Source: Hexactinellida sp. DTS-2022 (lineage: Eukaryota > Porifera > Hexactinellida). Taken from it: 64,000 bases of DNA. The stretch is taken from assembly GCA_028753945.1 (NCBI GenBank), contig JAPNXP010000001.1:14684501-14748500 (forward strand). The letters run 5' to 3'. Below, in pieces: positions 2,320 to 49,334 of the stretch (positions are counted from its first letter, which is position 1; each line of letters starts with the position of its first letter). The position numbers were made by a program, and so were the translations under genes. The notes beneath the pieces are model-generated. The model worked only from the letters and a program-made list of their open reading frames with translations. It ran no database searches and was not told the DNA's origin.

Positions 2320-4780
2320 TCTTTATTGATTTTCTAGTGAAAAGAGATTGTTATACAGTTGTTGTTTAATATATTTAATTTAATCAACTCCGCTTCATTG
2401 GGTAACTTTGGTCCAAATATAGTTTGACGAGATTAAGCGGATAAACTAATTAACGGAAAATGTACATTTTGTGGGTCTAACTATTGATTAATAAGTGTAC
2501 TTGTAGAATATGAATAGTTGCATCTATACAATACTACACGAGTGATATACACACTTTGGCGATTTAAATTGAAATTTTGGACCAATATTTACAAAGATTT
2601 ATTATGTTATTGAGTCGTTCAGACCAATTTTTACCCAAATCAACCAATTACGACTCAAATTTCTTAATTTTACCCGATTAATCGAAATTTGGCCCAATTA
2701 ACCGAAAATATTTTAAATTAACTTCTGTTGATTTGATTTTGCTAACCATTGATTAGATTAAGCGAAGTTGCCATATAGTATTTAAAATTAATTAACACTT
2801 GCTTTACGGAGCACCTATTCGGTGGCAAATTGTAAGATGCAATTTTTGTAAGTTTGCACCTAAATTAATAAACAATTTAGGTCCCATGAGTGTTCTTTAT
2901 GAGATATTAAATTCAGTTTTGAGCTACCTTATATACATTATGTATCCATCTGAGGTTGGGAGATAGGCATTCTTCGATTCAAAGGGATTTATGCAAATAT
3001 TTTACATTAAAAAATTTGTCCATTCTTCCATTCTCCAAACTCTTTTGTGTAATTAACACTTGAATTGATTTTTTGATGTGAAATTTACCTCGAGGTGTTA
3101 TTTACTCCATTGTTCCTCAAATATTATTTGATATGCAAATTATTGTGAACTGATGTCATTGTTCTCAAGAATAACACAACCTAGTACTATTATACCCATA
3201 GGCCATGGGCGTAGACATTGGGGGGAGGGGGCCTGACGCCTATGGCATAGGCGTAAATTTTGGAAAATATAATCAAAGATGGGGGCCCACTTGGGCACTG
3301 GGGGGGCCACTGGGAGGTTTACTAAATTTTTCCAGATTTGTTTCTTCAGAAACAAAATCTGGATATATTGGGTAAACAAATGTGATTCTCATCCTCTATA
3401 AGTCCTAGGTCGATCAAAATTATCAATCCTCACATGAGATGGCAAAAAGGGATTACTTTGGAAGATTCCACTCTCTCAATATCTACTGAAGATAGACAAC
3501 AAGTTGTCTCTATTTACGTAGTCTTCGTTATGATGCTAATCAATGAGATCATGTTGCCGTTATATACATATGTATGTTTAAGTGCAGCTTTTCATCCAGA
3601 TTAGTCATTTTGTATTACGTAAATCGGAGTATCTTACGATTTTCGCGCACCTAGCAAGGTTTTCGTGAATATTGACAGATGAATGGAGTGTTTCGCATCA
3701 CACACGGTAAGAGAATTTTGTGCCTCCTAATTTTTTGAAGCGAGCTCCCACTTCGCGCTCCTTGTTTCAAAAAGGAGCGTGCACCCATTTCCGCTCTTGC
3801 AAAATGGAACTCTCCTTTTGTTCTCCTTCTTTATTTACCTGAATATCATTTTGTTAATAATTATCAAGCTCCCGTATGATTCACTTAGACAGCAAAAAAT
3901 GGAAAATGGGCCTTTGGATGATAATAATAATAATTTCATTGTTTAGTTTTTATTGGGGCATTTGTAATTATGTCTGCAAAATTAAAATTCATTTGCAAAT
4001 ATACTCAAGAATGTGCTTTAAATCAATAATTCCTGGCAGATGTTTGTAGTAACGTAGAACCGCTCTCCAGTGAGCGTGCTCCACAAAAAATGGATGGACG
4101 TTCTAACTTATGCTCCTCAATAACTGCACTCCTTGCTTTAGTACTCACACTAGGTCAGGAAGTCATCCATTATGTATTGTTCGTTTCCTTTTGATAATTT
4201 TTATACGTATCTTCTCACTTCTCTCTGTTTCGTTTATACCCACTCCACAGATACTTAATTTTCACACTCTGATAATTTTTCATATAGATTCAACCTTGTC
4301 AGCAACGTGCTAATTAGTATACCTAATTACTTCGTTTACCATAAAACATTATCACCATATTTACGAGAAAGGTCTTCTAATTCCAAAAGATATAATTTAG
4401 TAATTCTGTGAATTCGTATAAATTCAATAGATTCACACATCACATCGTAAAATATGTAAATAATAGTAGTATGAGCTTCCAATTTACATATTTATTGTTC
4501 TATTTGGTCTAGTGGGGTCTCATAAGGCCATTGTTTCAGAACAAATATTAATTGAGATGCAAATTTGTTAATTCAAAGTATAATCCCATTGTTCCCAACC
4601 AATCTATGAACTCTAGTACTATAGAGCTACACAAACCATACGCATACGTATGCTCTTGCAAACTCAGATACTCATCAATTTTATTCTCGTTGGCGTTGGA
4701 GTATCTAACTTCCACGGAAAACCTAGTCTATTCCGATTATTTTCGCACATTGCATAACTTGCAAGGGTGGTGAATCTGCT
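2320..4780. other. Upstream flank of copy A, no gene
   Basis: Left-arm counterpart of 6,620-9,198 (inverted) and of 21,736-23,790 (direct). Short open frames here are not conserved as proteins between the copies. It contains a TCAACTCCGCTT MITE relic just upstream of the peptide exon and short runs of G/C at 3,220-3,310. Confidence 0.6.
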
Positions 4781-4993
4781 GTTAACAGCAATTTTGGCTG
4801 TTTTCTGTTAACAGATAACTATTTGCTGCTAACAGCGATGTTAATAGCTAAGAATTCGTCCCCAATTGTCATTAAACCTTAACTGCATTTAAGTCGCCTT
4901 TAAGTTGTAAATTAACGCTAATTTAAGCTGTTAACAGCCAATGTGAGTTGTTAACGGCCCATTTTGAGCTGTTAACAACGGGGCTGACTGAAT

Positions 4994-5281
4994 AGTGGAA
5001 TCTATCGGAATCCAGTGGAATCCAGTGGAATCTAGTGGAAGCTAGTGGAAGCTAGTGGAATCTAGTGGAAGCTAGTGGATTCCAGTGGAATCTAGTGGAA
5101 GCTAGTGGAATCTAGTGGAATCTAGTGGAATCTAGTGGAATTACTAAATTTTAGTGGAATTGACTGAACGGTGGAATCGAGTGGATTTTATAAAAACCTA
5201 CTGAACAGTGGAATCGAGTGGAATCTTTGACTGAATAGTGGAATCGAGTGGAATTTGACTGAATAGTGGAATCGAGTGGAA
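4994..5281. repeat. 10-bp tandem repeat AGTGGAATCT (left arm)
   Basis: More than fifteen near-perfect copies of AGTGGAATCT/AGTGGAAGCT, then a looser ACTGAATAGTGGAATCGAGTGGAAT unit. The open frames in this repeat are by-products of its composition. Confidence 0.9.
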
Positions 5282-5671
5282 TTTGATTAAATTGTTAAAC
5301 ACTACGTATATGCTATAAGCTATGTGTGTATCATATTACGCTAATTTTCGCCCATGTAAAATTGCTTGCAACGATTAAACTAGTGTTGTGCATGAAGTGG
5401 CACAATATGATACTATATTAGTATTCTTACTAATCATCTCTATTGAACTGCCCAATGAATACCAACTGGATTTGATAAGGAATTGTTGATAAATAATGTT
5501 TATAAGATGTGTCTAAATAACATGGTACCAAAGCCTAACTAATAAATCCTATTGTGTCACTTCATGCACAACAATAGTTTAATCGTTGCAAACAATTTTA
5601 CATGGGCGAAAATTAACGTAATATGATACACACTTAGCTTTCAGCATACACGTAGTGTTTAACAATTTAAT

Positions 5672-5905
5672 CAAATTCCACTCGATTCCACTATTCAGTC
5701 AAATTCCACTAGATTCCACTCGATTCCACTATTCAGTCAAATTCCACTCGATTCCACTGTTCAGTCGGTTTTTAGAAAATCTACTCGATTCCACCGTTCA
5801 GTCAATTCCACTAAAATTTAGTAATTCCACTGGATTCCACTGGATTTCACTAGATTCCACTAGATTCCACTAGGTTCCACTGGATTCCACTATTCAGTCA
5901 GCCCC
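5672..5905. repeat. Same 10-bp repeat, inverted (right arm)
   Basis: AGATTCCACT units, the mirror of 4,994-5,281, with about 390 bp of spacer that is itself palindromic. The copy number differs between arms, so the repeat has changed since the inversion. Confidence 0.85.
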
Positions 5906-6619: not shown

Positions 6620-9039
6620 CTTGGCTGTTTCCATCTCTGTGCGTAAGTTATTAACATCCTTCGTACCTCACGATAAGTTCCTCTAATAGAGAAAGAGCTG
6701 CATCGATTAGTGCAAACGAGCTGAGACAAGGTTGCAGAAGAGGGAACACTAGTTCCGAGGTCCGAGGTTGTACTAATCGATGCAGCTCTTTCTCTATTAG
6801 AGGAACTTTGATCAGAATATACTAAGGTTTTGCCTTTAGATACGCCAACGACAACGAGAATAAAATTGATGAGTGTCTGAGTTTGAAAGAGCATACGTAT
6901 GCGTATGGTTTGTGTAGCTCTATAGTACTAGAGTTCATAGATTGGTTGGGAACAATGGGATTATACTTTGAATTAACAAATTTGCATCTCAATTAATATT
7001 TGTTCTGAAACAATGGCCTTATGAGACCCCACTAGACCAAATAGAACAATAAATATGTAAATTGGAAGCTCATACTACTATTATTTACATATTTTACGAT
7101 GTGATGTGTAATCTATTGAATTTATACGAATTCACAGAATTACTAAATTATATTTTTTGGAATTAGAAGACCTTTCTCGTAAATATGGTGATAATGTTTT
7201 ATGGTAAACGAAGTAATTAGGTATACTAATTAGCACGTTGCTGACAAGGTTGAATCTATATGAAAAATTATCAGAGTGTGAAAATTAAGTGGAGTGGGTA
7301 TAAACGAAACAGAGAGAAGTGAGAAGATACGTATAAAATTATCAAAAGGAAACGAACAATACATAATGGATGACTTTCTGACCTAGTGAGAGTACTAAAG
7401 CAAGGAGCGCAGTTATTGAGGAGCATAAGTTAGATCGTCCCTCCATTTTTTGTGGAGCACTCTCACTGGAGAGCGGTTCTAGGTTACTACAAACATCTGC
7501 CAGGAATTATTGATTTAAAGCACATTCTTGAGTATATTTGCAAATGAATTTTAATTTTGCAGACATAATTACAAATGCCCCAATAAAAACTAAACAATGA
7601 AATTATTATTATTATCTTTTTTCTTTTCCATTTTTTGCAGTCTAAGTGAATCATACGGGGGCTTGATAATTATTAACAAAATGATATCCAGGTAAATAAA
7701 GAAGGAGAACAAAAGAGAGTTCCATTTTGCAAGAGCGGAAATGGGTGCACGCTCCTTTTTGAAACAAGGAGCGCGAAGTGGGAGCTCGCTTCAAAAAATT
7801 AGGAGGCACAAAATTCTCTTACCGTGTGAGATGCGAAACACTCCATTCATCTGTCAATATTCACGAAAACCTTGCTAGGTGCGCGAAAATCGTAAGATAC
7901 TCCGATTTACGTAATACAAAATGACTAATCTGGATGAAAAGCTGCACTTAAACATACATATGTATATAACGGCAACATTATCTCATTGATTTGCATCATA
8001 ACGAAGACTACGTAAATAGAGACAACTTGTTGTCTATCTTCAGTAGATATTGAGAGAGTGGAATCTTCCAAAGTAATCTCTCTTTGCCACCTCATGTGAG
8101 GATTGATAATTTTGATCGACCTAGGACTTATAGAGGATGAGAATCACATTTGTTTACTCAATATATCCAGATTTTGTTTCTGAAGAAACAAATCTGGAAA
8201 AATTTAGTAAACCTCCCAGTGGCTCCCCCAGACCCCCCAAATGGCCCCCATCTTTGATTATATTTTCCAAAATTGATGCCTATGCCATAGGCGTCAACCC
8301 CCCCCCCCCAATGGCTACGCCCATGGCCTATGGGTATAATAGTATACTAGGTTGTGTTATTCTTGAGAACAATGACATCAGTTCACAATAATTTGCATAT
8401 CAAATAATATTTGAGGAACAATGGAGTAAATAACACCTCGAGGTAAATTTCACATCAAAAAATCAATTCAAGTGTTAATTACACAAAATAAGTTGGAGAA
8501 TGGAAGAATGGACAAATTAATGTAAATATTTGCATAAATCCCTTTGAATCGAAGAATGCCTATCTCCCAACGTCAGATCGATACATAATGTATATAAGGT
8601 AGCTCAAAACTGAATCTCATATCTCATAAAGAACACTCATGGGACCTAAATTGTTTATTAATTTAGGTGCAAACTTTGCATCGTACAATTTGCCACAGAA
8701 TAGGTGCTCCGTAAAGCAAGTGTTAATTAATTTTAAATAATATATGGCAACTTCGCTTAATCTAATCAATGGTTAGCAAAATCAAATCAACAGAAGTTAA
8801 TTTAAAATATTTTCGGTTAATTGGCCCAAATTTCGATTAATCGGGTAAAATTAAGAAATTTGAGTCGTAATTGGTTGATTTGGGTAAAAATTGGTCTGAA
8901 CAACTCAATAACATAATAAATCCTTTTAAATATTAGTCCAAAATTTCAATTTAAATCGCCAAAGTGTGTATATCACTCGTGTAGTATTGAATACATGCAA
9001 CTATTCATATCCTACAAGTACACTTATTAATCAATAGTT

Positions 9040-9137
9040 AGATCCACAAAAATGTACATTTTCCGTTAATTAGTTTATCCGCTTAATCTGGTCAAACTAT
9101 ATTTGGACCAAAGTGACCCAATGAAGCGGAGTTGATT
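9040..9137. mobile_element. MITE relic in the peptide-gene promoter
   Basis: Left end has GTTAATTAGTTTATCCGCTTAAT; right end has CAATGAAGCGGAGTTGA, which resembles the inverted form of the left end and matches the MITE family at 14,075-14,240 (CAACTCCGC with GATTAAGCGGAG). Copies A and C have it at the same distance from the ATG, so the insertion is older than the duplications. Confidence 0.5.
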
Positions 9138-9152: not shown

Positions 9153-9198
9153 AACAACACTGTATAACAATCTCTTTTCACTAGAAAATCAATAAAGA

Positions 9199-12100
9199 AT
9201 GAGGATCTCCAAAGTACTCATCGTGTTTGGCGTTGTAGCGATGGTGGCGCTACTCAATGCCCGTTCCACAGGTGAGTAATAATTATATTGCTTACATATA
9301 ACCTTGTATCCATAGGCCAAGATTAATACATATGTATATTTGTTTAGATCAGCAAGTTCAGATTAAAGAATTGTAAGTTTAGAGGGAAATATAAATTGTA
9401 TAACCGTTCATTTAAGCAATTTTGCAATAATATACGACATGCTATTCAAATCACCCCTGTCAGTATACATAGTTACAACAGTATTACTTTAGTCATCTCC
9501 CTTTGTAACGAGAGTACGTGACTAGGAAATTATAATTTAAGCGATAAGATTTGGAGCATTAGAATTTGAGTGGTACTTGTACAATATAGAAAGTATGTAG
9601 ATTAATACTTTTGGCATGACGAAATGTCCACAGTCACAATAAATCAAGATATTTATGTAAGACGAGTGACGGATAACTAAACTACCCCGCAGTCTCACAT
9701 TTTCAATAGTTAATCACAACAATAAATATTAATATTATATAATTTTAATAGTAGCGAAATTCGTGTTCAGGATACTTATTTACAAAACAATTGAAATTTA
9801 GTTTACATCTCAATAAGGAGATTCCCTATCACTTTAATACAATCCGGACAAACATTCAAACAAACAAACATACAAACAACCATCGAGTTTTAATAATATT
9901 GTTATATCATCTATAAATATGTACTTAATTTCTGGAATTCGAGAAGTAGCATACATAATATTATTATACGCATTATGGGATAATAAGTGGTGTGTACATA
10001 TACTATACACGTATTACTTATTAATTTGTATCATTTGGTAACAAACAAGCTATAGACGAACAAGTTGACTGTTGCCATTACACCTATCACACATGTGTGT
10101 TTATCCCAATTTATACCAAATTACAGAGCCTTAGTTCTACTCTAGAGCATTAAGAATAATCACATATAGGATTATAGAATAACTTACGGTTATAATTATT
10201 TATAACATTGATATTGTATTATTTAGTAACGCAAAAGCTGAAGACGAAAAGGCTGACACTGACATAGAAGCAGTGGATGAAGAGGCTGATTGTCATCCCT
10301 ATTATCAAATGTCGTACGAGAAGTGAGTATCCGAGGAATTTTAAAATTTGTATTAGCATGGGCTTAATTATGATGTTATAAGAATAATCTGCTAATGCCT
10401 AGAAAATCACGGTAGAAAAAGTGTTATATACAATAGACTCTCGTAAAAGAAATGCATAGGGACTGTAGAAATTTGTTCGTGTTAATCAGAGTTATTTGCA
10501 TACATTCGTATAGGCTAGGAGAAATTAACCTTGTTGTCGTATCTATATTCGTACTAACGAGAGTCCACTTAAGTAATGCATCTAATTAATTCGCAAAATC
10601 TGCAAGTTTCTTTACAAGAATTATGGTTCCTTTGAACTTGTTAAGTTTATTCAAATTTGAGTTGTACCATTTGACAATATATAGATATAATTATTGAATA
10701 ACTTAATGTTAAAATGTTTGTATTATTTAGTGACCTAGCAGCACTAGACGAAGACGCTGACTCTTTCGCATTGAGCGAGAAGTGAGTAACTGAGGAATCA
10801 CTATTTTATGGGCTTCTTTGTGCATTGGTCAGCCCGTTTTAAATATAAAATCCTGCTTTTTATTGAGAATTTTTGAAAATGCAATTTACCTTACCAGTGC
10901 TTAAAAGTACATTAGAAAGCTGTTGACAGGTATAAAAATCCTAAATTGCAGCTGTACCGACGCATGTTCCTTTGGTGGCACTATATTTTGGTGGTGTTTT
11001 ATTGATAGTGCCTCCAAAGGAATATGCTGTCTTCACAGCTGCAATTTTTGATTTTTTCGCCATGTCATGAACGCCTCATGGTGTTTAGCCTCATTTAACA
11101 AGTTGTTACGGGACTAAGGAACTATTGTTGAATTTGAAGTTTATTTCTATCTTAAACCATCTTGAATTTATTGCCATTGATTATGTATAGATAATAAATA
11201 ATATAAATATTTAAGTGTCTTAGCAATGTTATCCAAGGTGAGTTTAAATTCAACAAATTCCTTATTTAATTAATTTAATTTGATTCAATCCATTGTATTG
11301 TATAAGTCAATTAAATAAAAGCCAGCTCGAATTCACAAGTTAAATCAATTTAATTATCGAAAGTTGAAACAATAGTGAAAGATTTAATAAGTTAAATCTT
11401 CTTACTCTCGACCAATTAAATTACAGCCTCGGTTAGGCATTCTATATGCACACTAACAATTGATAGAAAATCCGTTTATACTAATTGGATGCTAGCTGCT
11501 AATTCATACTGGGACAACCCTCGAATTTAATTGGCTAAGCCATAATTGGATTAAATAGGTGTTAAAATTATTTTATCATAAATCGTAATCCCAGGTGCAA
11601 ATTAGACGGTCCCATCGCACCTACATGCCAAGTTTCAGCCCATCAACTATAAAGCTCTGGCCAGGGCACCGTCTACGGAGAAAAAATAATAATAATAATA
11701 AAGGCAGTGATTCCAATACTGGGCCACTATAGTATAGTATAGTCGGCACAGTAAAAAGTAATTCCCCAATAATTAATTGTCAGAACATTAACTTATTTAC
11801 GGAGTCGGTTCACTGTAGTCTTACTACAAACAACTTCAAAGTTTACAGGGAATTAATGCAAAAAATTGATATATTTGCGTATCTTCGGTCATAACGCGTT
11901 GGATTTTAGTTTGTCATAAGCCCCAATAAAACTAGACAACAAAATTCTTATTCTATCATTATCCAAATTCCTACTTCCCTTTCCCTGAATCTAAATGAAG
12001 CCAACGGGACTGATTATATGACATGTAAATGTAAAGATGCAATCCGAATATATATAAAACGAGCCCTTCGGTCTCGGTCGCTTTGCGACAGATCGGTGCT

Positions 12101-13237
12101 ACGCACCTTAAGTTAACGGCCGCTGTGCGGCCTTACTCCTCACATTTTCTACCATAGAAATGGTAGAAAGGGACGTTATGATTTAGAATTTTCATAAATT
12201 TGTTTACCTATTTGTGTAAACAACAACAACAACAAATACTCATCTTATAATTTTATAAATGCGAAATTCGTGTTCAGCACACTTGTTTACTTATAATACC
12301 CACTGAAAGCTAACTTCTAGGTTGATTTTGAATTTTCATTAATTTGTTTAGCTATTTTGTGTAAACAACAACAACAAATATTCATATTATAAATTTATAA
12401 ACGCGAAAATCGTGTTCAGCATACTTGTTTACCTATAATACTCGTTGAAACTAACTTCTAGGTTGATTCTGAATTTTCATTAATTTGTTTACCTATTTTG
12501 TGTAAACAACAACAACAAATATTCATATTATAAATTTTTAACCGCGAAAATCGTGTTCAGCATACTTGTTTACCTATAATACCCGTTGAAAGCTAACTTC
12601 TAGGTTGATTTTGAATTTTCATTAATTTGTTTACCTATTTTGTGTAAACAACAACAACAAATATTCATATTATAAATTTTTGACCGCGAAAATCGTGTTC
12701 AGCATACTTGTTTACCTATAATACTCGTTGAAAGCTAACTTCTAGGTTGATTCTGAATTTTCATTAATTTGTTTACCTATTTTGTGTAAACAACAACAAC
12801 AAATATTCATATTATAAATTTTTAACCGCGAAAATCGTGTTCAGCATACTTGTTTACCTATAATACCCGTTGAAAGCTAACTTCTAGGTTGATTTTGAAT
12901 TTTCATTAATTTGTTTACCTATTTTGTGTAAACAACAACAACAAATATTCATATTATAAATTTTTGACCGCGAAAATCGTGTTCAGCATACTTGTTTACT
13001 TATAATACCCGTTGAAAGCTAACTTCTAGGTTGATTTTGAATTTTCATTAATTTGTTTACCTATTTTGTGTAAACAACAACAACAACAAATATTAATATG
13101 ATAAATTTATAAACGCGAAATTCGTGTTCAGCATACTTGTTTACCTATTATAACATTTGGAACTTAGTCTCTATCTCAATAATAAATGCGGTTTCTAGTC
13201 CCCCATCACTTTAATACAATCCGGACAAACAAACAAA

Positions 13238-13290
<53 letters not shown>

Positions 13291-13637
13291 AACAATCGAG
13301 ATTTAATAATATAGATGTGCACGAGGGGGATTGGGCTCAAAAATTGTTGAGCGGTTAATACTCTGATACATGTAAAAATATCCTATTTTGCAAGAATTAA
13401 GTATCCTTTAATCTAAAGGTTGTTTTATTTAGTGACGATGAAGCAGTGGATTCAAATGAAGAAGCTGAATTTTGGTTCTTCCGCAAAACCTTCAAAGGCA
13501 TTGGTAAAAAAATTCGTAAAGCCTTTCGTAAACTCAAGCGCGTTTTTACGGCTGTGAATAGAGAACGTCGAAAAAACCGTAGACTCCGTAAAGCTCTGCG
13601 TAAATGTCGTCGCAGTAAGAGAAGTGAAAGCGAATAG
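9199..13637 (+). CDS. Secreted acidic-propiece / cationic peptide precursor, copy B (five exons)
   Basis: Exons are 9,199-9,271, 9,348-9,372, 10,227-10,322, 10,731-10,781 and 13,433-13,637; each junction has GT (GTGAGT or GTAAGT) and TTTAG, and the phases fit, giving 450 nt and 149 residues. Residues 1-24 are a signal peptide (basic start RISK, hydrophobic core VLIVFGVVAMVALL). A long acidic propiece follows (EAVDEEAD, LDEDADS, SNEEAE). The last about 55 residues are very basic, starting FWFFRKTFKGIGKKIRKAF, with hydrophobic and basic residues alternating as in an amphipathic helix, and ending arginine-rich. One cysteine lies in the propiece and one in the basic part. Secretion and antimicrobial or membrane activity are inferred from this plan; I know no named family for it. 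Intron 4 carries a Helitron-like element. The single-exon copies elsewhere support the gene model. Confidence 0.82.
10870..11062. repeat. Foldback element in intron 4 of copy B
   Basis: TTGCAGCTGT...TTCCTTTGGTGGCACTAT is mirrored by ATAGTGCCTCCAAAGGAA...ACAGCTGCAA. A relative lies at 54,862-54,962. Confidence 0.6.
11063..12058. other. Rest of intron 4 of copy B before the Helitron
   Basis: No exon recognised. It contains the repeat word CTCGAATTTAATTGGCTAA (11,522), shared inverted or direct with 14,394, 18,361 and 52,459, and other repeat fragments such as the CCAATAAAAC segment near 11,920. Confidence 0.4.
12190..13140 (-). repeat. Tandem array, unit about 125 bp, in Helitron-like element 2
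   Basis: Units contain GTGTTCAGCATACTTGTTTAC and a CAACAACAA run. Two alternating unit variants (AACCGCGAAAATC and GACCGCGAAAATC) suggest amplification of a dimer. Confidence 0.85.
13217..13292. repeat. (CA)n microsatellite
   Basis: A CAAACAAACA run followed by about twenty CA repeats inside element 2. Confidence 0.9.
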
Positions 13638-13657
13638 GCCCTGGAGTTATCTGGGAG

Positions 13658-13800
13658 CTCTTCAGTAATTTAGGCAGTAATTCAGCTATTTAGGCAGTAA
13701 TTCACTAATTTAGGCAGTAATTCACTAATTTAGTCAGTAATTCAGTAAATTAGGCAGTAATTCAGTAATTTAGGAAGTAATTCAGTAAATTAGGCCGGAG
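13658..13800 (+). repeat. 3'-UTR minisatellite of copy B
   Basis: About seven units of TTTAGGCAGTAATTCAGTAA right after the stop codon. The same repeat follows copy D (16,548-16,605) and copy C (19,720-19,935, inverted). Confidence 0.85.
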
Positions 13801-13932
13801 TATCTACTATATATGACTTAGCTCCGATATTCAATTAAATTCAGTTTATTTTGCCTTGTAACAACTCGTGTTACTCACTTGATATCCACAAATATTGTAT
13901 CTGATTGATTGATAAGCAAGCTGCTTGTATTT

Positions 13933-13938
13933 CAATAA
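13933..13938 (+). terminator. Poly(A) signal of copy B
   Basis: AATAAA about 300 bases after the stop codon, after the minisatellite. Confidence 0.5.
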
Positions 13939-14069
13939 AATATTATGGAATGTAACGAATGAATAAAGCGAAAATCACACATCCCTCTCATCTTCCATTT
14001 TGTAATATAATATCTGTTACATTCGGAATCATTCGCCACTACGTGCGGTTCGAAGGCCGCATACTCAGG

Positions 14070-14245
14070 TTGATTGTACAGTCAACTCCGCATAATAGAG
14101 CCACCTCGGGACCAGGTTGTTTTGATCCGATTAAGCGGAGAAACAGATTAACCGAAAGTATTGTAAGCCAAACTGTAGTTCTGTCCTATAAATCCTGTGA
14201 AATTTTGACCCGATTAAGAGGAGAAACCGATTAACCGGTAGTAAT
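14070..14245. mobile_element. MITE, CAACTCCGC / GCGGAG type
   Basis: Starts ACAGTCAACTCCGCATAATAG and holds GATTAAGCGGAGAAAC twice. Related pieces at 2,390-2,455, 9,040-9,137, 15,430-15,545 and 21,785-21,880. No transposase. Confidence 0.5.
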
Positions 14246-14394
14246 GTATAGTTAGAAATGTTTAGCTAGTCAGACAGAGCACAATAACTTATTGGATGAT
14301 TGAATATATTCTAGACCAATTAAATTAAAGTCTCAGATTAGCATTTTATAAAGCATCCTTACCAACTAATGGAGACATACTGGGACAACCCTCG

Positions 14395-15380
14395 AATTTA
14401 ATTGTTTAAAGGTTTTGACACCTTTTGGGATGGAAGATTCCTATATTTCCTTAGATTTTCAATTTCTTTCTAGATACTGTATACCCTACAACAACCTTTC
14501 CAAATTTTAATTATGTAGCTCTCACCAATCCTCAATCAATTCTGAACAACAGACAAACAAACAAACCATCTAGAATTAGTATACGTATAAGATTTATGTA
14601 CATAATTAATGTGGACTAATTATAAAATAATAACATGCTAATACCTTCTCTCTGACTTCTTTGTTTCTCTTCAACTACGAATTGGTGGCGCTCAGTTGTG
14701 CCTCCAGATCTTCCATATTGTTCCCACGGCTAGCATCCATTGGGAGGGCCGGAGGAAGCAATTTTATGTTGGTAGGGCCAAATTTAGCACATCGTCGTTG
14801 CCGTAGCTAGCCACGCCAAGGCACTACGTGTTGCTCCGTTGTATTCTCGGTTCCTAACACTTTACGTGGCAACACTGTATTCCAGAGTCTTTATTAGCGA
14901 CGCAGAATGTTAGCTTGCCCAAAGTTCGCATTTTGGGCTAGCGCATGCGCATTGTGCTGATCTGCGAGCTGCTTCAAGTAGCTCGCAGGTGAGAACGAGC
15001 ACTGACAACTCCGAACATCCTGAGATCGCAAACAGCGATAACCAGACAGCTTCCGGCGGCCCTGTTCTGACGAGACAGATTTATGTTTTCATTTGTCACA
15101 TCCTAGAATCGGGTCTGCACACGCTGCAGGGCCTATACGCCAGCAATGCATTGTTGAATATGCGCATTTGTACAGTGCAAGGCTATTTTAGTCATATATT
15201 AAATCACAATTATTTGTTTGTTTGATGTTTGTTCGGAATTGATTGAGGAAGTGGTAAGAGAATTTAAATGTGGCCAGGATTATGGGAAATACTGTATCTA
15301 GAAACAAATATCTAAGAGAAGTAGTCGCATCTTCCATCACAAAGGATGACAAAATGTTTAAATCTTTGCTTTAAATTGTT
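14395..15380. repeat. Palindromic element 3
   Basis: Left arm about 14,440-14,590 is mirrored at about 15,195-15,370 (shared: AATTGATTGAGGA, CTGTATCTAGAAA, CTTCCATC). The arms look like those of the palindrome at 16,530-19,965. The spacer (14,640-15,190) is more GC-rich; the open frame at 14,989-15,225 is not recognised. Confidence 0.6.
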
Positions 15381-16370
15381 GCCTACAACCTTTGCATGTG
15401 TACCAACACAATGCGTTACATATTTGTTAAACTAGACTTCAGTCGACTCAGCTTAGTTGAGCCACCAGTTAATAGAATTCTTCGATTAATCGGGAAAAGT
15501 AACCAGGTCCGTGGTGACTCTATTAAACGGAGTCGACTGTTTTAGGAGAGATCGTCATAGCCTCATAGGTTCTTAAACTAAGTTACTTGGTTACCCACTT
15601 TACTTCTCCAACAAGCTCACGACCCCCTTAAGTAACAATTGTAACTATATATTTGATTAACATTACTTAAGTGAGATATAATTATTATAATATGTTCTTT
15701 ACACTGGGACAATTAACAAGATCGAGGGGGCTCGCATGTTGTAATTAAATTTCTGAAAATATACAATGGTGATAATTCGAAATTTTGTTATAAATGGGAA
15801 TGGTGTAAAGAAATTAATCAACTTACTTTTGTGAGCTTGACAATTTTAACTATAATATGAATGGTGCAGACAACATATCACAAATTATCTCACTTTAGTA
15901 AGGTTAATCAAATATATAGTTATATTTGTTACTTGTTGGAAAAATAAAGTGGGAGCGAAGTGGCTAAGTTTGGGAACCACTGATCTATGACGATCTCTCT
16001 TAATAGTCTAGCTTGGAAAATACGTAACGCATTGTGTCGGTACACACGCAAGGTTTGTAGGTATGTGTAAGTAATTAAGACGCAATAGCCCGGAATGAGT
16101 GGTGAAAATATGAGGTGGATATAATTTGTGTAATCAATATTTGTTTGATCTAGCTTTCAGAAAAATACACAATTTACACGAAATAGAATGTCAAATTACA
16201 CTACCAGTCGCAGGCAAGCTCATGTCTGCCAATTGAAGGAAAAATAAAGATTTAGGTACGTATTGTGAAATGAAACATGGAATGTTTGCACCAACCATAA
16301 ATCCCTAAACAAATGTCCCTGGACGACTGAACTAATGGAGCATGTTCCTGTAAAGTTGATAGGTATAGCA
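15381..16370. other. Intergenic, no gene seen
   Basis: Holds a CAGTCGACTC MITE-like piece (15,430-15,545) and an AT-rich stretch. The open frames at 16,220-16,580 are not supported: the real coding relic here is in another frame (copy D). Confidence 0.4.
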
Positions 16371-16374
16371 GCTA

Positions 16375-16525
16375 GTATCATAACAATTATGAGCGTCAAC
16401 TTCATCGACTCAAACTTATGTTTCGTAAATATCAACACCAGTGGCATTATTGCATTCTCCGAAATAGACGACTCCATGGACTTCTTCGTAGATGTCGTCG
16501 CAGTGAGAAAAGTGAAAGCGAATAG
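16375..16525 (+). pseudogene. Secreted cationic peptide gene, copy D (end of last exon)
   Basis: In the frame ending at the TAG at 16,523-16,525 the sequence reads RNRRLHGLLRRCRRSEKSESE in part, against KNRRLRKALRKCRRSKRSESE in copy B. The homology runs on into the 3' UTR minisatellite. Upstream it fades around 16,380, no signal-peptide or propiece exon was found, and a TAG lies near 16,373. It is a decayed last exon that still differs mostly in the mature-peptide part. Confidence 0.6.
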
Positions 16526-17449
16526 GCCCAACCGTTATCTACCGCTCTTCAGTAATTTAGGCAGTAATTCAGTAATTTAGGCGGTAATTCAGTAATTTAG
16601 GCCGGAGTATCTACTATACGTATATGACTTATATCCGATATTCAATTAAATTCAGTTTAGTTTGCTTAGTAACAACTCGTGTACTCACTTGATATCCATA
16701 AATATACATGTAGCATCTGATTGATTAATAAGCAAGCTGCTCTTACCAGCTACGCCCTGCTTGTATTCCAAACCGTTTCGAATGTTTTGCCGGTTGTATT
16801 CAATTAAATATTATGGAATTTTAGTAGTTTAGCAGTTTCTATTGTACAGCCTGTAGGTAGCAGAACAGGAAATTCCAAACCTTGTTTAGCTGTGCCTCCT
16901 AAGCAAGTTAATTTTATCCGTGGATCCCAGTTTTGGTTTACAGAAAATACTAACCCATTAAGCGCCGAATTATTGACGCTAATTTCAACAGACCATTTTA
17001 TATATAAGCTAGTCCGTGTGTAATATACCGAATTCCAAATATTCTAATTTCATCATTATTAAGGAACTTTATAACTTCTTGGACCCAAGTGGGAAACAAT
17101 TGTTAAACTGATTTATAAAAATGGATATCAAATAGACACAATGGAAAGTTAGAATTGTATGGCTAGACATACAGAACACGATAACTGATTGGATGATAGA
17201 ATATACTTCGAGCGATTAAATTACACTCTCAGATGGGCATTATATAAAGGACCCTTAACCATATGATAGATATACTATTTTCTCACCTTTTGGGATGGAG
17301 ATCCAAATATTTTTCATATATAATTCAATTTGATTCTAGCTACAGTATTTCAAACCACCATTCCAAATTTAAGTCTGTATCTCTTACCAGTTCCTCAATC
17401 AATTCTAAGCAAAAAAACAAACCCAAACATCGTGATTTATTAATATAAC

Positions 17450-17520
17450 AAGCTTCTCATCCGCGTTACGCGCGCCTTTACAACTTGCACTCGGGCCTGC
17501 GGCCCTCGCTTGTATTTAAG
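17450..17520 (+). other. GC-rich mini-hairpins, possible element end
   Basis: CGCGTTACGCG and GGGCCTGCGGCCC followed by TCGCTTGTA, similar in design to the 3' ends of the Helitron-like elements but different in sequence. Confidence 0.35.
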
Positions 17521-17699
17521 CAAATGCAAGGTTAAAAGTTGAATACAGAAAAGTCTAGTCTCATGTTCAGCATATCTGTTGACCTGTAAATAATACCCGG
17601 TTGGAAGCAAGCCTCTACGTCCATTTAATTTTGATTAAAAAATCTCCAATTCGTTATAATCGGTTATTTCGTTATATTTAATTTGTTATAACGGGATTT

Positions 17700-17850
17700 C
17701 ACTGTATTTGAATGTGATCCAGCGATTATTTAATCATTGAATCATTAAATTATCAATGGATTGTTAATTCCGAACAGATAATGGTGGTATAGCAAAGTTG
17801 ACCACTCTGAAAAGTGGTACGGTGATCACCGCACCTGCCGTATCGGGATG
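17700..17850. mobile_element. Fragment of the GGTACGGCG hAT-like element
   Basis: ACCACTCTGAAAAGTGGTAC and the flanking words match the element at 55,882-56,195. Confidence 0.45.
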
Positions 17851-18714
17851 CCTTCCCTGCATTATACTATCAACCTAATTAACCAAATAGATGTTACAAC
17901 TCAAAATGTTTGCGATTTGCTACTCTACAAAAAGTTTATTGCAGAGTGTATCATATGCTCTATGGGGAAATTCCAAAATACTCAGATGTTTTTTCAAAAT
18001 TTCCAAATATACTCAACTTTACTGACACTCAACTATAAACTAGCACTTTCCGAATTTCTAAAATTATTCAAAATAATTCCAATTCTACTCAAGTATTTTC
18101 AAAGAATTTCAAATCCGCTCAACTTTTCAATAAATTCACAGATCTACTCAAGTTTAGAAGGCTATATTTAGTCTATCTTATATATTAAATCACAATGTTT
18201 TTGTTTTTATTTGTTTGTGTGTTTGTTCAGAATTGATTGAGGAACTGGCAAAAGCTAAAGACTTGAAACTGAGCAGGGCGGTAGGAAATACTGTACGTAC
18301 AAACAAGTTCAATATCTAAAAAGATTTCACATCTTCCATCACAAAAAGAGTCAGAACTTTAGCCAATTAAATTCGAGGGTTGTTCCAGTATGGATTAGCA
18401 GCTAGCATTAGATTAGAATAATTGAATGCTTTAGTGTCTGTCAAATGTTAAGTATGCATCATAGAATACTGAGAGTCTGAGACAGTAATCTAATTGGTCG
18501 AGAGGAAGTTCAGGCATATAATCAGTTATTTGTGTTCTGTCTGTCTAGCGATAAATTTCTAACTTTCCATTGTATCTATTTGGTATCCATTATTATCTAT
18601 CATTACAACAATTGTTTCCCACCTGGGTCCAAGAAGTAGCGCAGTTCCTTAATAATGATGAATTATATTATTTGGAGTCGGTATATTACACACGTACTAG
18701 CATGTATATGTTAT

Positions 18715-19105
18715 GTCGATTTTGTCAAATGTTGATTTTACAAAATCAACATGAATCAACGGAATTAAAACAAGTGTTCGACTTTAGCTATATTACTCGG
18801 ATAAGCCTAGGTTTTATTGCATTTTGTACATAATTCGCTTCATCCAAGTATATACCGACTTGTATGAAGAATTTTTTACCAAAATGAAAATTTTTATTAG
18901 AATGAAAAAATATTCCAGGGTGATTTTGCAAAATCAACGAATAAAATATGTCGATTTTATAAAATCAACATTTTTTATTAGTTTATTTTGTAAAATCGAC
19001 ATTTTTTATTAGTTGATTTTGTAAAATCAACGATTTTGATTTTACAAAATCGACATTTTTGGATGTTGATTTTGTAAAATCGACTATTTGACATAATCGA
19101 CATAA
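18715..19105. repeat. Array of short palindromes (GTCGATTTTGTAAAATCGAC)
   Basis: Ten or so copies of TGATTTTGTAAAATCAAC and TGTCGATTTTGTAAAATCGAC variants, each its own reverse complement, spaced by poly-T/AT spacers. A shorter piece lies at 20,812-20,845. Confidence 0.7.
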
Positions 19106-19719
19106 CATATATATAATTGGCTGTTCAAAATAGCGTCAATATTGCGGCGCTTACTGATTTGTATTTTCTGTAAACCCAAACTGGGATCCACGGATATAAT
19201 TACTTGCTTAGGAGGCACAGCTAGACAAGGTTTGGGATTCCTGTTCTGCTATACACGCTGTACAATAGAAATTCTAAATGTCACTCTATACAACGGTAAT
19301 TTGTGCATAGACTAGCGGCGAGTCGTATTATCTACAATATGATTTTCCGCAATATAATCAACCTGTGTATCCTGCCTTCGAACCGCACGTGTATTCCGAA
19401 TGCAACAGATTACAAAATGGAAATTCGTTACGTAGGGAGAGGAGATGTATGATTTTAGTTTTTTATTCTTTACATTCCACAATATTTAATTGAATACAAC
19501 GGGCAGAACATTCGAAACGGTATTTGCTTGGAATACATGCGAGGGCCATAGCCACGAGATCTAGTTGTTAGAACGAGCGTAGTGCGGAAGAGCAGCTTGC
19601 TTTTAATTAATTAAGAAACTATATTTGTGGATATCAAGTGAGTAGCGCGAGTGGTTAGTCACCAAACCAAACTGAATTTAATTTAATATCGGATATAACT
19701 CATTATAGTTTATACTCCG

Positions 19720-19935
19720 GTCTAAATTACTGAATTACTGCCTAAATTACTGAATTACTGCTGAATTTACTGAATTACTGTCTAAATTACTGAATTACTG
19801 CCTAAATTACTGAATTACTGCCTAAATTACTGAATTACTGCCTAAATTACTGAATTAACGCCTAAATTACTGAATTAACGCCTAAATTACTGAATTACTG
19901 CCTAAATTACTGAATTACTGCCTAAATAACTGTAG
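19720..19935 (-). repeat. 3'-UTR minisatellite of copy C
   Basis: About ten 20-bp units CCTAAATTACTGAATTACTG right after the stop codon on the minus strand, more than in copies B and D. Confidence 0.9.
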
Positions 19936-19968
19936 AGCGCCCAGATAACTGTTGAGGCCTATTCGCTT

Positions 19969-21735
19969 TCACTTCCCACCGCACACAAATCGACGGATTT
20001 TTAAGTATAGGGCACGGTATTTACGGTACAGGCGATAATACTTAAGGACTTTATGTTTGAGTATACGAATGTGTGAGTTGAAGCTTTTCTTCTCAACTGC
20101 TTCGTCAGAATCTGCTGCTACATCGTCACTAAACAATACAAACATTAGATAAGAGTATTAAGTGCGCATCATCAGAGTATTAAGTGCTCATCAATTTTGG
20201 AGCCCGCTCCACCTTGTGCTCCCATTTTTATTTAGCAGGATTGGATGTTAACATTTACATGTTGTATAATCAGGTACGTCGGGTTCCTTTAGATTCAGAT
20301 AAAGGAAATTGGGAATTTGAATGATGATAAAAGAATAATTCTATTATCTAGTTTTATTGTAGCTTATGTCTTCAAAATAAATCCAACATGTTGTCTCCAA
20401 ACATACACAAAGATGTCAATTTTTTCCAATAATTCCCAGCAGTACTTTGTAGTTACACTACAGTGAGCAGGCTCCGATAAAAAGTTGATGCTCTGCCAAT
20501 TGATCATTGGAATTACTTTTATATATCAGTCAACATCTATTTTTAAGCACTGGCAAGTTAATTTTGTTATCAAAAACTCTCCTTATAAAGCCGGATTTAT
20601 ATATAAAACGTGCTGAGCGATGTACAAGGAAGCCCATTAACTATTAATTAATTCATCAGCTACTCACTTTTCGCTAGAGAAAGATTCAACTCCTTCGTCA
20701 GAATCTTCGTCTAGTGCTGCTAGGTCACTAAATAATACAAACATTTTAACATTAAGTTATTCTATAATCTATCTATCTATTAAAAGCGAAATTGTTGTCA
20801 GTGTGTGTGTAAAATCAACATTTGACAAAATCGACAAACAATAATATATTGTCAAATAGTACAACTCAGATTTGAACAAACTTGACTAGTTTTTGGCAAA
20901 TTCATTAGGTACATTACTTACAGTGGACTCTCGTTAGTGGGAAATAGATACGACAATGACAAACAAGGTAAAATTCTCCTAACCCTTACGAATGTATGCA
21001 AATAATTCCGATTAAACGAAAAATTCCGACGATCCCCTTGTAATCTTATTAACGAGAGTCTAATAGTATATAAAACTATATTTCTACTCTGATTTTCAGG
21101 CACTGGCAGGTTATTTCTAATACATCTCAAATATGCCGATACTATTATCAATTTTAAAATTCCTCGATTACTCACTTCTCGTACGACATTTGATAATAGG
21201 GATGACAATCAGCCTCTTCATCCACTGCTTCTATGTCAGTGTCAGCCTGTTCGTCTTCAGCTTTTGCGTCACTAAATAATACCAAATCATTGTTATATAA
21301 TTATAACCATAAGTTATTCTATAATCCTATATGTGATGATTCTAAATGCACTAGAGTAAGGCTCTTTACTAAGGCTCTTTAATTTTCCTCACATTCGTCA
21401 TAAAAACATTTGAGTGATAGCCATAGGGGTAATGGCACTTGTCAACTTGTTCGTATATATACTGACGGGGGAATTTGAATTTCCTGTTCGTATATGGTTG
21501 CAAAATAGCATTAAATGCAGGGTTATAACAGTGTATATTTCCCTCTAAACTTACAATTCTTTAATCTGAACTTGCTTATCTAAACAAATATACATAAGTA
21601 TTAATGGCAGTTCTTGGCCTACGGACACAAGGTTATTTGTATGCAATGTTATTAATACTCACCTGTGGTACGGGCATTGAGTAGCGCCACCATCGCTACA
21701 ACGCCAAACACGATGAGTACTTTGGAGATCCTCAT
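19969..21735 (-). CDS. Secreted acidic-propiece / cationic peptide precursor, copy C (five exons)
   Basis: Exons on the minus strand are 21,735-21,663, 21,579-21,555, 21,271-21,176, 20,727-20,668 and 20,128-19,969, all with GT-AG borders and matching phases: 414 nt, 137 residues. Signal-peptide exon, mini-exon and first propiece exon are almost the same as in copy B. Exon 4 is 60 nt rather than 51. The basic segment is quite different: it begins EKKSFNSHIRILKHKVLKYY, is rich in K, R and Y, and ends FVCGGK. The stop comes earlier because the frame has slipped relative to copy B (the nucleotides of copy B's SESE end are still there after the stop). Conserved prepro part with a diverged mature part is typical of host-defence and venom peptide families; function here is inferred. 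Confidence 0.8.
20764..20850 (+). mobile_element. Helitron-like 5' end fragment
   Basis: TCTATCTATTAAAAGCGAAATTGTTGTCAG then GTGTGTGT; matches 52,267-52,330. It lies in intron 3 of copy C. Confidence 0.4.
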
Positions 21736-23640
21736 TCTTTATTGATTTTCTAGTGAAAAGAGATAGTTATACATACAGTAGTTGTTTAATATATTTAAAT
21801 AAATCAACTCCGCTTAATTGGGTAACTTTTGTCCATATATAGTTTGACCCGAATAAGCGGATAAACTAATTAAACGAAAAACTACTATTTTGTGGGTCTA
21901 ACTATTTATTAATTCTAGTACTAGTAGAGTATAAATAGTTGCATATATACAAAACTTCACGAGCGATATACATACTTTGGCGATTATAATTGAAATTTGG
22001 GATTTTGATGTAGAGTTGCCCAACCCAATTCACCCAGTATCATCAAATTACGACTAAAATCCCTTAATTTTTCCCTTAGCAAATTTACCCAATAAACATA
22101 CAATATTAATGCATTAGCTTTTATTGGTATTATTTTGTTCCTGGGAAATGCGGAGTTTACAGTATAGTATTTCAAACTAATTAATTCTTCCTATACGGAA
22201 CACTTATTCGGTTGCAAATTACAATGAAATACTTTAACATTAGACCTAAATAAAAATCGATGTAAGTCCCATTAGTGTTCGGTGTAGGAAGGTTTATAGG
22301 ATATGAAATTTGGTTTTTGAGCTACTTTATATACATTATGTATCGATCTGACGTTGGAGATAAGATTCAAAGGGATTTATGTAAATATTTTACATTAATT
22401 TAGCTATTCTTCCATCCTCTATCTTCTTTTGTGTACTCGAATTTACACAAGAATTGATTTATTGATGTGAAATTTACCTCGAGGTAAAACACGCTCCATT
22501 GTTCCTCAAATATCATTTGATATGATAATTATTATGAACTGATGTCATTGTTCTCAAAAATAACACAACCTAAATATTATACCAGATTTTATACCTGAAC
22601 CCTTGTATTAACACACTTTACAGCATCATCTATATTTATATTTACTACTTGACGTTGCTAAATTCGTGATCAACAAATTCGTTTCCTAATTTTGTCAATA
22701 AATATAATAGATATTATTGTCAAAGGTTACTCGAATTTAACGTTGTTTACCTTTTATAACTTCTGTAAATTAGTCTATAGCCCAAATATGAATTTATTTA
22801 TCGCTTTAATACAATACAAATAAACTGACAAATATAATGCCCAGCACGGTTTTCGTTCCAATTTGCGAGTCAGGATGAAACCTGGTTAAGTGTGAATGTG
22901 AACTTAAGTATGAATGTGAATTTGAATGATAATAATAATTTTATTGCTTAGTTTTGATTGGGGCTAAAGCTAAAATTTAAACCTAAATTTAGGTACAAAT
23001 CTAAGCAAAAATAGCTTTTTATCAATAATTCCCAGGAATTGATGTAGAAAATTAGAAGTGCACTCCTGTGTGTGTGTGTGAGCTTCGAAAAAATGGAGTG
23101 GCGATCTAACCTCCGCTCCTCAAAAATAAGTGCACTCTTTCTTTAACACTCTCACATGGCCAGAAAGTCATCCTTTATCTTTTATTGTCACTTTTCTTTT
23201 TCTGTTAATTTTTAGACGTATCTTCCCACTTCTCTCCCTTTGTTGATAACCACTCCACAGATACTTAGCTAATTAACATATAAATGCAACTTTGTCAGCA
23301 ACATATTTGTATACCTTAATTACTTCGTTAACTATATAACATTATTACCATATTTTCGAGAAAGGTAGTCTAATTCCAAAAGACAATAATTCAAAATTCT
23401 GTGAATTTTATAAATTTAAAAGATTACGACATAACATCGCAAAAAAATTTAAATATTAGTATGGGACTTCCTATTTACATATTTATTGTGATATATCATA
23501 TTTGGTCTCGTGGGCTCTCATCAGGCCATTGTTCCACAAATATTAATTCAGATGCAAATTTTCTAATTCAAACCAACAATTTCATTGTTCCCAACCATTC
23601 TATGAGCAATAGTATAAAGCATACGTATGCTCTAGCTAAA
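21736..23640. other. Upstream flank of copy C, no gene
   Basis: Direct repeat of the copy A flank (2,320-4,690): shared words include TTTACCTCGAGGT and GAACTGATGTCATTGTTCTC. An insertion-deletion difference removes the G/C-run segment of copy A and adds other DNA at 22,590-22,830. Confidence 0.6.
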
Positions 23641-47603: not shown

Positions 47604-49334
47604 TTAGAACATCTGAATACAATGTTCAGGGTTATGAGACACAACTATAACTCTACCTTCTCTATCCGTAGCTATCCCAGTAGGAGAGATAAGGTCTCCT
47701 CTTCCCTCTCCTCTCTTCCCAAACTTGTGTAGCAGTTCTCCTCTGCTAGAGAATATCACAACATAATTAGCTGAGTAGTCAGTCAGTAGAATATCAAAAT
47801 CTTTGTCGAGACAAATGTGGAAGGAGCGAATCACCTGCTTGCCTTCTCCTCGTGTTATTGTCTTTCTAATTAGTTGATGAGAGTAGTCATAGAAATGTAT
47901 GCATGGATTTCCAGCTGTCAGTACAACGATATTTTGGGGAGTTAGCCAGGCTTGGGGCTGATTACGATTACAATCGTAATCGATTGTAATCGATTACAAC
48001 TTTTCCTGTAATCGTAATCGTAATCATAATCAAGCTTTTCTTGAAGGATGTAATCGTAATCGTAATCGTAATCACCCAAATCAGCCCCAGGTATGGCACC
48101 AGGCCCCCCCCCCCCCAATTTTCCACAATAACTTTAAATAAGGATATAGTTGAGGGTTCGCTGATCTCATTGCACCTCCAAATATATATCCGGCCCCTAC
48201 AAATAATTCTTGGTGGCTCCCCCATGCACACTGGCATTATTTTTCATGCGCATGAAACTCCGGGGCTTAATCGAAACAATCGTAATTGCATCGTAAAGAA
48301 AATGAATTGTAATCGATTGTAATCGATTACAACATTTCCTGTAATCGTAATCGTAATCATAATCAAGCTTTTTCTGAAGGATGTAATCGTAATCGTAATC
48401 GTAATCACTCACTAGTAATCAGCCCCAGGTCTGGTGTTAGCTTGATATCAAGGGGACGATTATAAACAGGAATGAATGAATTTAAAGTTAAATTCAAATT
48501 CAAACATTGAATACGATTGTTGCTCGCGTCACAAATGTAAATAAGATTATTCACAGTTGATACAGCTACCCCTCTTGGATGTTGAAATTCCAGTTCTTTC
48601 TCGCCTCCTCTCCCAACTGACTGTATGTATCTACCTTCGGTAGAGAATACAGTGAGGGAATTAGTTCCGTACTGTGTTACATAGACTTTGTTAAGATGGA
48701 TACAGATACCGGCTGGGCCATTCATCTCATCACTGAAAGTGAATAAGAATTCCAAAGATTCACTAAAGACTTGTACCCGATCATTACCATCATCACAAAT
48801 ATACACATTATTCGTTTGCGAGTCAAGAGCAATTGAATTAGGCCAATTGAACTCTCCAGGAGTTGAAGAGGTCTCCTCTCTATGTTTCCCAGCTACCTTT
48901 ATAGGATTTCCTTTCTCCTTGTAGTCCGCTTCTCCTCTCACTCGAATCGATCCTGTCCTATTCAGTATTCCTTCTAGGTTTGTATCCCACTCCAGCTCCA
49001 CTCGTCTCATCCTATCTCTAGCTGTCTCCAGACTAGCTTCTAGCTCTCTCATGCGGGCATCCAACTGTGCTATAATCTGTTGGAGAAACTCTTGATTCTC
49101 ATTATCCGTAAGAGTAGCAATGTTTTGCTCTTTCGTTATTCTCAGCTGATCAATCTGTTTATCAACTCCCTCCCCCCTGTAGACATCCTCTAGCTGCTGC
49201 AGCTCTGACAGCAGTGCTGTCTCTCTCTCTCGCAGCACCTGATGAGTTCTGGCTACTCTCTCCCGTAGCTCTACTCGCACCCTCTCTATCTTGGTCAGGA
49301 ATGGATTCCCTACTGGCACATTAGCACTAGCCAT
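47604..49334 (-). CDS. Coiled-coil NHL-repeat protein, copy 1 (interrupted by a MITE)
   Basis: ATG at 49,334. Residues 1-150 are a long coiled coil (RVRVELRERVARTHQVLRER ... LETARDRMRRVELEWD) and are followed by NHL beta-propeller blades (NSIALDSQTNNVYICDDGND, GVAVSTVNNLIYICDASNN). After LDIKLTP a 487-bp hAT MITE is inserted (47,947-48,433); beyond it the frame continues to FGKRGEGRGDL and stops at 47,604. It lacks the RING and B-box of TRIM proteins. NHL propellers bind proteins or RNA; the role here is unknown. A GTGAGT at 48,412 and an AG at 47,951 could splice the insert out in frame. Close paralogue at 58,676-59,911. Confidence 0.7.
47947..48433. mobile_element. hAT MITE inserted in NHL copy 1
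   Basis: CAGGCTTGGGGCTGATTAC at the left, GTAATCAGCCCCAGGTCTG at the right; flanks GAGTTAGC and GTGTTAGC (7 of 8). The intact copy 2 reads GAGTTAGCTTGATATC without a gap. Inside are runs of GTAATCGTAATCG and a C-run element piece (48,100-48,250). Confidence 0.8.

Follow-up and report, generated by a model that had tools for sequence, protein, structure and literature searches.

The window analyzed here is a 64,000-nucleotide (nt) stretch of the genome of Hexactinellida sp. DTS-2022 (GenBank assembly GCA_028753945.1, contig JAPNXP010000001.1, positions 14,684,501 to 14,748,500 of the forward strand). It carries two complete genes, copies B and C, between positions 9199 and 21735, and these belong to a set of twelve genes in the genome that share one leader. 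With somewhat better than even confidence, we read the set from its sequences as a family of secreted prepropeptides for host defence, restricted to this lineage, in which the leader is conserved and the payload changes fast, and we infer an antimicrobial or membrane-active function for the payloads. Compared with the first description of these genes, their more unusual feature is that one leader serves three payload chemistries.

The initial annotation, made from the letters of the window, described B and C as two complete five-exon genes for a signal peptide, an acidic propiece and a basic C-terminal segment. All ten exons were recovered in our gene models, which have a hydrophobic leader core and opposite charges in propiece and payload. 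The GT-AG junctions and the exact closure at 450 and 414 nt were also reproduced (8/8 introns, phases 1,2,2,2). Copy B has a coding length of 73+25+96+51+205 = 450 nt, giving 149 amino acids and a stop, and copy C has 73+25+96+60+160 = 414 nt, giving 137 amino acids and a stop. The stop of copy C is 10 nt upstream of the position where the stops of its relatives fall, because the reading frame at its end differs from theirs. The start codons of B (9199) and C (21735) set the limits of the feature, and the exons are as follows.

9199-9271 (+): copy B exon 1, signal peptide MRISKVLIVFGVVAMVALLNARST (gene model; genome search with the signal exon)
9348-9372 (+): copy B exon 2 (gene model)
10227-10322 (+): copy B exon 3, acidic propiece ending in CHPYYQMSYE (gene model)
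10731-10781 (+): copy B exon 4, acidic propiece (gene model)
13433-13637 (+): copy B exon 5, acidic header, cationic amphipathic payload and stop (gene model, charge and moment)
21735-21663 (-): copy C exon 1, signal peptide (gene model)
21579-21555 (-): copy C exon 2 (gene model)
21271-21176 (-): copy C exon 3, acidic propiece (gene model)
20727-20668 (-): copy C exon 4, acidic propiece (gene model)
20128-19969 (-): copy C exon 5, acidic header followed by KK and a cationic payload with CGGK end, then stop (gene model, charge)

The genome searched comprises 112.4 Mb in 18 contigs, and the names C1, C7, and C13 denote contigs. Searching it with the signal exon identified four genes on C1 (copies A to D, hereafter the C1 genes) and six on C7 (C7-1 to C7-6), and a protein search added C13-1 at C13:4483276 (-) and C1b-1 at C1:13962408 (+). 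The genes occupy C1:14673181-14706235 (copies A to D), C7:196736-217019, C13:4481142-4483276, and C1:13962408-13964228. A degenerate pattern of the leader core with 32 places, run with up to one mismatch (more divergent leaders escape it), had 12 matches, all exact and at precisely the 12 genes, while the reversed control had none. Models of all 12 genes, on three contigs, are open in frame with one terminal stop and have intron phases 1,2,2,...,2. GT-AG borders are present at 53 of 53 introns, partly by construction, as GT-AG models were chosen. The models of C13-1 and C1b-1 were assembled by hand, guided by the family plan; their exons 2 to 4 are equal in length in both (22, 60, and 42 nt). 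Recurrence in every one of the 12 genes, together with the clean control of the leader pattern, indicates that the architecture of B and C is beyond chance. Signal peptides were judged by hydropathy, with the cleavage site placed by eye; each of the 12 leaders has a basic start followed by a hydrophobic core (Kyte-Doolittle mean 2.99-3.21 over residues 6-18).

Sequence similarity among the genes extends to DNA at both ends. Exon 1 is 99-100% identical among the four C1 genes, and its identity to exon 1 of the six C7 genes is 83-87%. In all 12 genes, a stretch rich in pyrimidines, with TAG at its 3' end, is present 13-14 nt 5' of the ATG. Because this stretch resembles a splice acceptor, an extra non-coding first exon upstream of the ATG exon is likely in all of them. 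Downstream, all genes but C1b-1 (11/12) have the motif WAWTTTAGGC within 300 nt 3' of the stop; 26 of its 32 matches are in those 3' flanks, and none are in gene bodies (171.5 kb, both strands). In the C1 genes, it belongs to a 20-nt tandem repeat; it is tandem in several genes, and it may perhaps serve as a messenger RNA element or as a substrate for gene conversion. The shared leader, intron phases, and 3' flank point to common descent of genes with unlike payloads. The flanking features of B and C are listed below.

9183-9184 (+): candidate splice-acceptor AG in the 5' untranslated region of copy B (like site in 12/12 genes)
21750-21751 (-): candidate splice-acceptor AG in the 5' untranslated region of copy C (like site in 12/12 genes)
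13661-13791 (+): copy B 3' flank, 20-nt tandem repeat with WAWTTTAGGC (motif search)
19941-19722 (-): copy C 3' flank, 20-nt tandem repeat (motif search)

Payloads of the 12 genes fall into three classes: cationic (four genes, all C1), Cys/His/Pro-rich (six genes, all C7), and CX3C...CX3C (C13-1 and C1b-1). Acidity of the propiece is strong in the C1 and C7 genes and mild in the two CX3C genes. A single family of cationic peptides, as first proposed, thus describes four genes, and the other eight leader-bearing genes have payloads of other kinds; the leader is therefore the mark of a group of secreted peptides, not of one cationic peptide.

In the cationic class, an end rich in Lys and Arg follows the acidic propiece. 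Propiece and payload have net charges of -22/+22 in B, -26/+18 in D, -24/+19 in A, and -24/+14 in C, with a boundary placed by eye whose shift by up to five residues alters each charge by no more than 3. Charges of propiece and payload are thus opposite in four of four genes. Copies A, B, and D end in SESE, and C ends in CGGK. The maximum helical moment of each payload was compared with 2000 shuffles at spans of 18 and 24 residues, and the fractions given are uncorrected. Over 18 residues, moments reach 0.89 in B (shuffle fraction 0.0045) and 0.83 in A (0.011); over 24 residues, the shuffle fractions are 0.001 for B, 0.0115 for A, and 0.019 for D. These values support a putative amphipathic helix in B and A and weakly in D, with no such signal in C. 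For the amphipathic cationic end claimed in the initial annotation, the signal is thus above shuffles in B and A, mixed in D, and not significant in C.

Genes of the second class have one to four exons before the last one, in which an acidic header (e.g., ETKALEEQANDDVEAVDDETD) precedes Cys/His-rich repeats. The repeats are often Pro-rich and variable in number, and many have a CHPCHE end. C7 products contain 8-41 Cys and 26-48 His, and the two residues together make up 27-30% of the sequence after the signal. Phase-2 introns on both sides mean that these header-plus-payload exons can multiply with the frame unchanged. C7-1 and C7-4 each have an additional acidic exon without Cys or His.

The Cys and His content of this class is one of the observations that favour the main rival explanation, in which the products would form silica or act at the spicule surface: chains that are cationic and His-rich would speed silica condensation, and the acidic partner would time it. 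We consider this unlikely for the family as a whole. Of seven cathepsin-like stretches examined that cover the active site, five have Cys, one has an odd form, and one has Ser. The last is a cathepsin-L-like gene (C1:17465759-17466850) with Ser at the catalytic Cys (CGSSWAF) and His and Asn kept, a combination that is the hallmark of silicatein and suggests a siliceous sponge as the host. At a second cathepsin-like place, near 12.76 Mb on C1, the form is CGSCYAF. Glassin and some perisilins are described as having signal peptides and His-rich regions tied to silica deposition (PMC10772126, available portion), and as secreted His-rich chains they resemble the C7 class; the CAP domain of perisilin was absent from the eight of 12 members scanned with Pfam. 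The precursor of diatom silaffin-1 is outlined as acidic, then basic (PMC3820600, available portion), which is the order in the C1 class. In contrast to silaffins, C1 payloads are short and non-repetitive, and Ser is scarce in them (3/55 residues in B, 2/40 in D, 4/49 in A, and 2/40 in C). The CX3C payloads have no obvious role in silica formation, and amphipathic helices are unneeded for it.

Repeats of the C7 genes also bear on a role as matrix, mucus, or adhesive proteins, where opposite charge blocks would lead to coacervation and Cys/His/Pro repeats would crosslink through metal or disulfide bonds. That the last exon of the C7 genes is preceded by one to four Cys/His-rich ones, each with its acidic header and a variable number of repeats, agrees with this proposal. 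The C1, C13, and C1b products are short (85-149 amino acids), lack such repeats, and have a single C-terminal payload each, which makes it a rather unlikely account of the set.

The third class consists of C13-1 and C1b-1, with products of 85 and 87 amino acids that have CX3C-X9-CX3C or CX3C-X7-CX3C at the C-terminus and all four Cys aligned. Charges before and from the first Cys are -7/+4 in C13-1 and -6/0 in C1b-1; because these are small, charge balance is not a rule for this class. Cone-snail superfamilies are groups of ligands defined by their leaders, and several payload frameworks behind one leader would also be expected if the products were venom-like or signalling peptides in which the leader marks a superfamily of channel or receptor ligands. 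The C1X3C2XnC3X3C4 spacing of both class 3 genes is that of plant alpha-hairpinins and kappa-hefutoxin-like peptides, and of scorpion and cone-snail potassium-channel blockers, as set out in the accessible part of PMC7191063. However, the motif is short, the likeness is in spacing only, and ten of the 12 genes lack it, so a ligand role seems distinctly improbable.

Among the four C1 genes (six pairs), identity is 93-96% in the coding sequence through exon 4 and 45-62% in exon 5, and it is 80-97% in introns 1-3 and 84-92% in the 3' flank. The acidic header in exon 5 is alike at 36 of 37 nt between B and D, with weaker conservation in C and very little in A. In 6/6 pairs, similarity is lower in the payload than in the 3' flank. 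Judged by these identities, leader, propiece, and 3' flank are maintained, and the payload drifts at least as fast as the adjoining intron. We considered focal hypermutation of the payload and set it aside, as the end of intron 4 is equally divergent in three of the six pairs. Over the first 21 codons, nonsynonymous divergence (dN) is lower than synonymous divergence (dS) in nine of ten pairs drawn from five genes and three classes; between copy B and the other four genes, dS is 0.52-1.27 and dN is 0.02-0.12. By this measure, the leader is under protein-level constraint.

Searches against known families agreed with the initial annotation, which could name no matching family. Pfam had no match above cut-off for eight of the 12 members, the nearest being DUF5956 on C7-2, a Cys/Pro-rich member (22.7 bits; cut-off, 24). 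Among nine of the 12 members, the best NCBIfam match had an expect value (E) of 0.026, judged by E rather than by a curated cut-off. Sub-cut-off Pfam matches to ETRAMP, DUF7637, BUD22, CDGSH, Protamine_P2, and DUF5956 were set aside as probably composition-driven. The Protamine_P2 match, on copy A (E 0.009; score, 16.9 bits; cut-off, 25), is what speaks for non-secreted, arginine-rich nucleic-acid binders of protamine type with a spurious leader. Such products are highly improbable, since the leader with its hydrophobic core is kept in 12/12 genes, the propiece is acidic, and the C7 and CX3C products are not Arg-rich; we set this explanation aside on the retained leader and the non-basic members.

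The search of the precursors for relatives that had been suggested earlier was run on 5.8 billion proteins. Copy B as query had 34 candidates and a nine-member alignment had 5355, with no relative at E <= 1 in either case. As a control, an NHL-repeat protein encoded in the window had 1060 relatives at E <= 1e-10 in the same collection (best identity 84%; at least 120 of them from ENA), which indicates that DNA of the host's relatives is represented there. Absence of relatives of the peptide genes is weak evidence, because the entries appear to be gene calls, which may miss multi-exon genes with short exons. Sequence searches of the PDB, for which the queries were the nine-member alignment and exon 5 of B, gave nothing better than E 0.75, and no Rfam match reached the gathering score over the whole window. 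Among the titles and abstract openings listed in searches of the sponge-peptide literature, none describes this family.

Secreted peptide families with a similar plan occur in other animals. Antimicrobial peptides (AMPs) of Hydra are summarized as clustered and taxon-restricted, with a signal peptide and a mostly bipartite charge (PMC10945409, available portion), and arminin-like placozoan precursors are presented as having the same prepro plan (PMC12013895, available portion). As far as these sources go, Hydra arminins and periculins and the placozoan arminin-like AMPs share with the present genes a signal peptide, an acidic N-terminal part, a cationic C-terminal part, and gene clusters. Arminins have a C-terminal glycine for amidation; copies A, B, and D lack it, and C (CGGK) could yield one after trimming. 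They also differ from the present set, in which one leader serves three payload kinds, and the likeness is by description rather than by sequence. In mussel myticalins, conserved signal and anionic regions likewise accompany a hypervariable cationic peptide, and a 5' untranslated region intron lies right before the ATG, as is likely here; unlike in the four C1 genes, where the order is reversed, the cationic peptide comes first and the anionic part is C-terminal (PMC5577615, available portion).

Frog-skin precursors offer a further parallel, again by description. Dermaseptin-type precursors have an acidic propiece and a dibasic site just before the payload. They reportedly combine a conserved leader with a changing payload (Vanhoye 2003). 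The present genes share the conserved leader and changing payload, but a dibasic pair is found in only one of the four C1 genes, and the genes have at least five coding exons.

Under the host-defence reading, the leader would route the precursor into the secretory pathway, and the acidic propiece would hold the basic payload by charge (-22 against +22 in B), keeping it harmless inside the cell until a protease removed the propiece on release. On bacterial membranes, freed cationic payloads would fold as amphipathic helices. The Cys/His/Pro-rich payloads would act as ligands of zinc or copper, through metal withholding or a pH-dependent charge, and CX3C...CX3C payloads would form a two-disulfide helical hairpin, which in alpha-hairpinins has Cys1-Cys4 and Cys2-Cys3 bonds. 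Since all introns but the first are phase 2, an exon with acidic header and payload can be duplicated in frame; C7 genes show up to four such exons before the last. A broader proposal, which we put forward tentatively and hold as possible rather than probable, is that one ancestral gene gave rise to a single-leader, multi-framework peptide arsenal with a logic like that of cone-snail and frog-skin superfamilies. The gene ends (5' untranslated region acceptor, leader, and 3' repeat) would be kept, and between them frame-neutral phase-2 exons with acidic header and payload would be swapped, duplicated, and fast-changing, giving membrane-active helices, metal-binding Cys/His peptides, and disulfide hairpins.

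Several findings weigh against a host-defence family. One leader with three chemistries could also fit a general-purpose secretion cassette that serves proteins of the matrix or of minerals, and a silica-forming or matrix role is possible, above all for the His-rich branch. Charge balance does not extend to the eight non-cationic genes, of which C13-1 and C1b-1 were counted, and a dibasic pair at the payload start is present only in copy C (KK) and in none of A, B, and D. The 18-residue helical moment is 0.69 in D (shuffle fraction 0.16) and 0.63 in C (0.12), and the 24-residue fraction for C is 0.073. In three of six pairs only (B-D, B-C, and D-C), divergence of the payload exceeds that of the final 150 nt of intron 4; the remaining three pairs show no significant difference. 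The contrast between the 5' and 3' parts of the C1 genes appears to come in part from an older or less homogenized 3' half, because introns 1-3 are also highly identical and the end of intron 4 is divergent. In the leader, the exceptional pair C7-1/C7-6 has no synonymous change and two amino-acid changes. For exon 5, dN of 0.47-0.99 and dS of 0.62-0.98 come from a doubtful alignment and do not demonstrate positive selection.

Two other C1 genes lie near B and C. Copy A starts at 2319 (-) and runs past the left edge of the window, and copy D (C1:14673181-14675738) is 11 kb outside it. A remnant of an exon 5 end is also present in the window, and no matches to exons 1-4 occur around it between 13800 and 19960.

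2319-2247 (-): copy A exon 1, signal peptide, DNA identical to B (genome search, model)
950-926 (-): copy A exon 2 (gene model)
C1:14682848-14683909 (-): copy A exons 3-5, left of the window (gene model)
16487-16529 (+): remnant of an exon 5 end, 40/43 nt as in B, followed by the 3' repeat (sequence comparison)

The surroundings of A and B form a near-perfect inverted duplication (2467-2848 against 8670-9051 at 96% identity, and 3293-3818 against 7711-8236 at 98%). Oppositely oriented arrays with a 10-nt unit are found near the center of this palindrome (4993-5280 and 5662-5900). A tandem repeat with a unit of about 138-145 nt is present in opposite orientation in intron 1 of copy A (1068-2056) and intron 4 of copy B (12165-13157).

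Other genes in the window encode ubiquitin-related and NHL-repeat proteins. A 392-amino-acid open reading frame at 31476-32654 (-) combines an E2 (ubiquitin-conjugating) domain (151-287) and an E3-type U-box (315-376) in one protein. Its neighbors include a VWA domain (32709-33185), a weak E2 match (28255-30651), and a second U-box (27776-28192). NHL-repeat proteins are encoded at 48405-49334 and 58676-59911 (-); the latter was the control query described above, and the number of its relatives places it in a large family.

Many sponges host dense microbial communities. Few gene-encoded antimicrobial peptides of sponges are known, and the defensin-like peptide of Suberites domuncula is given as one of the few that are well characterized (PMC12466427, available portion). 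If the host-defence reading is true, the present family, which joins one leader to three payload chemistries through frame-neutral exons, would show by what means a repertoire of secreted peptides is built up and renewed in an early animal lineage, and it provides twelve concrete precursors. If the His/Cys branch instead acts on silica, the genes would be equally useful for the question of silica control in demosponges.

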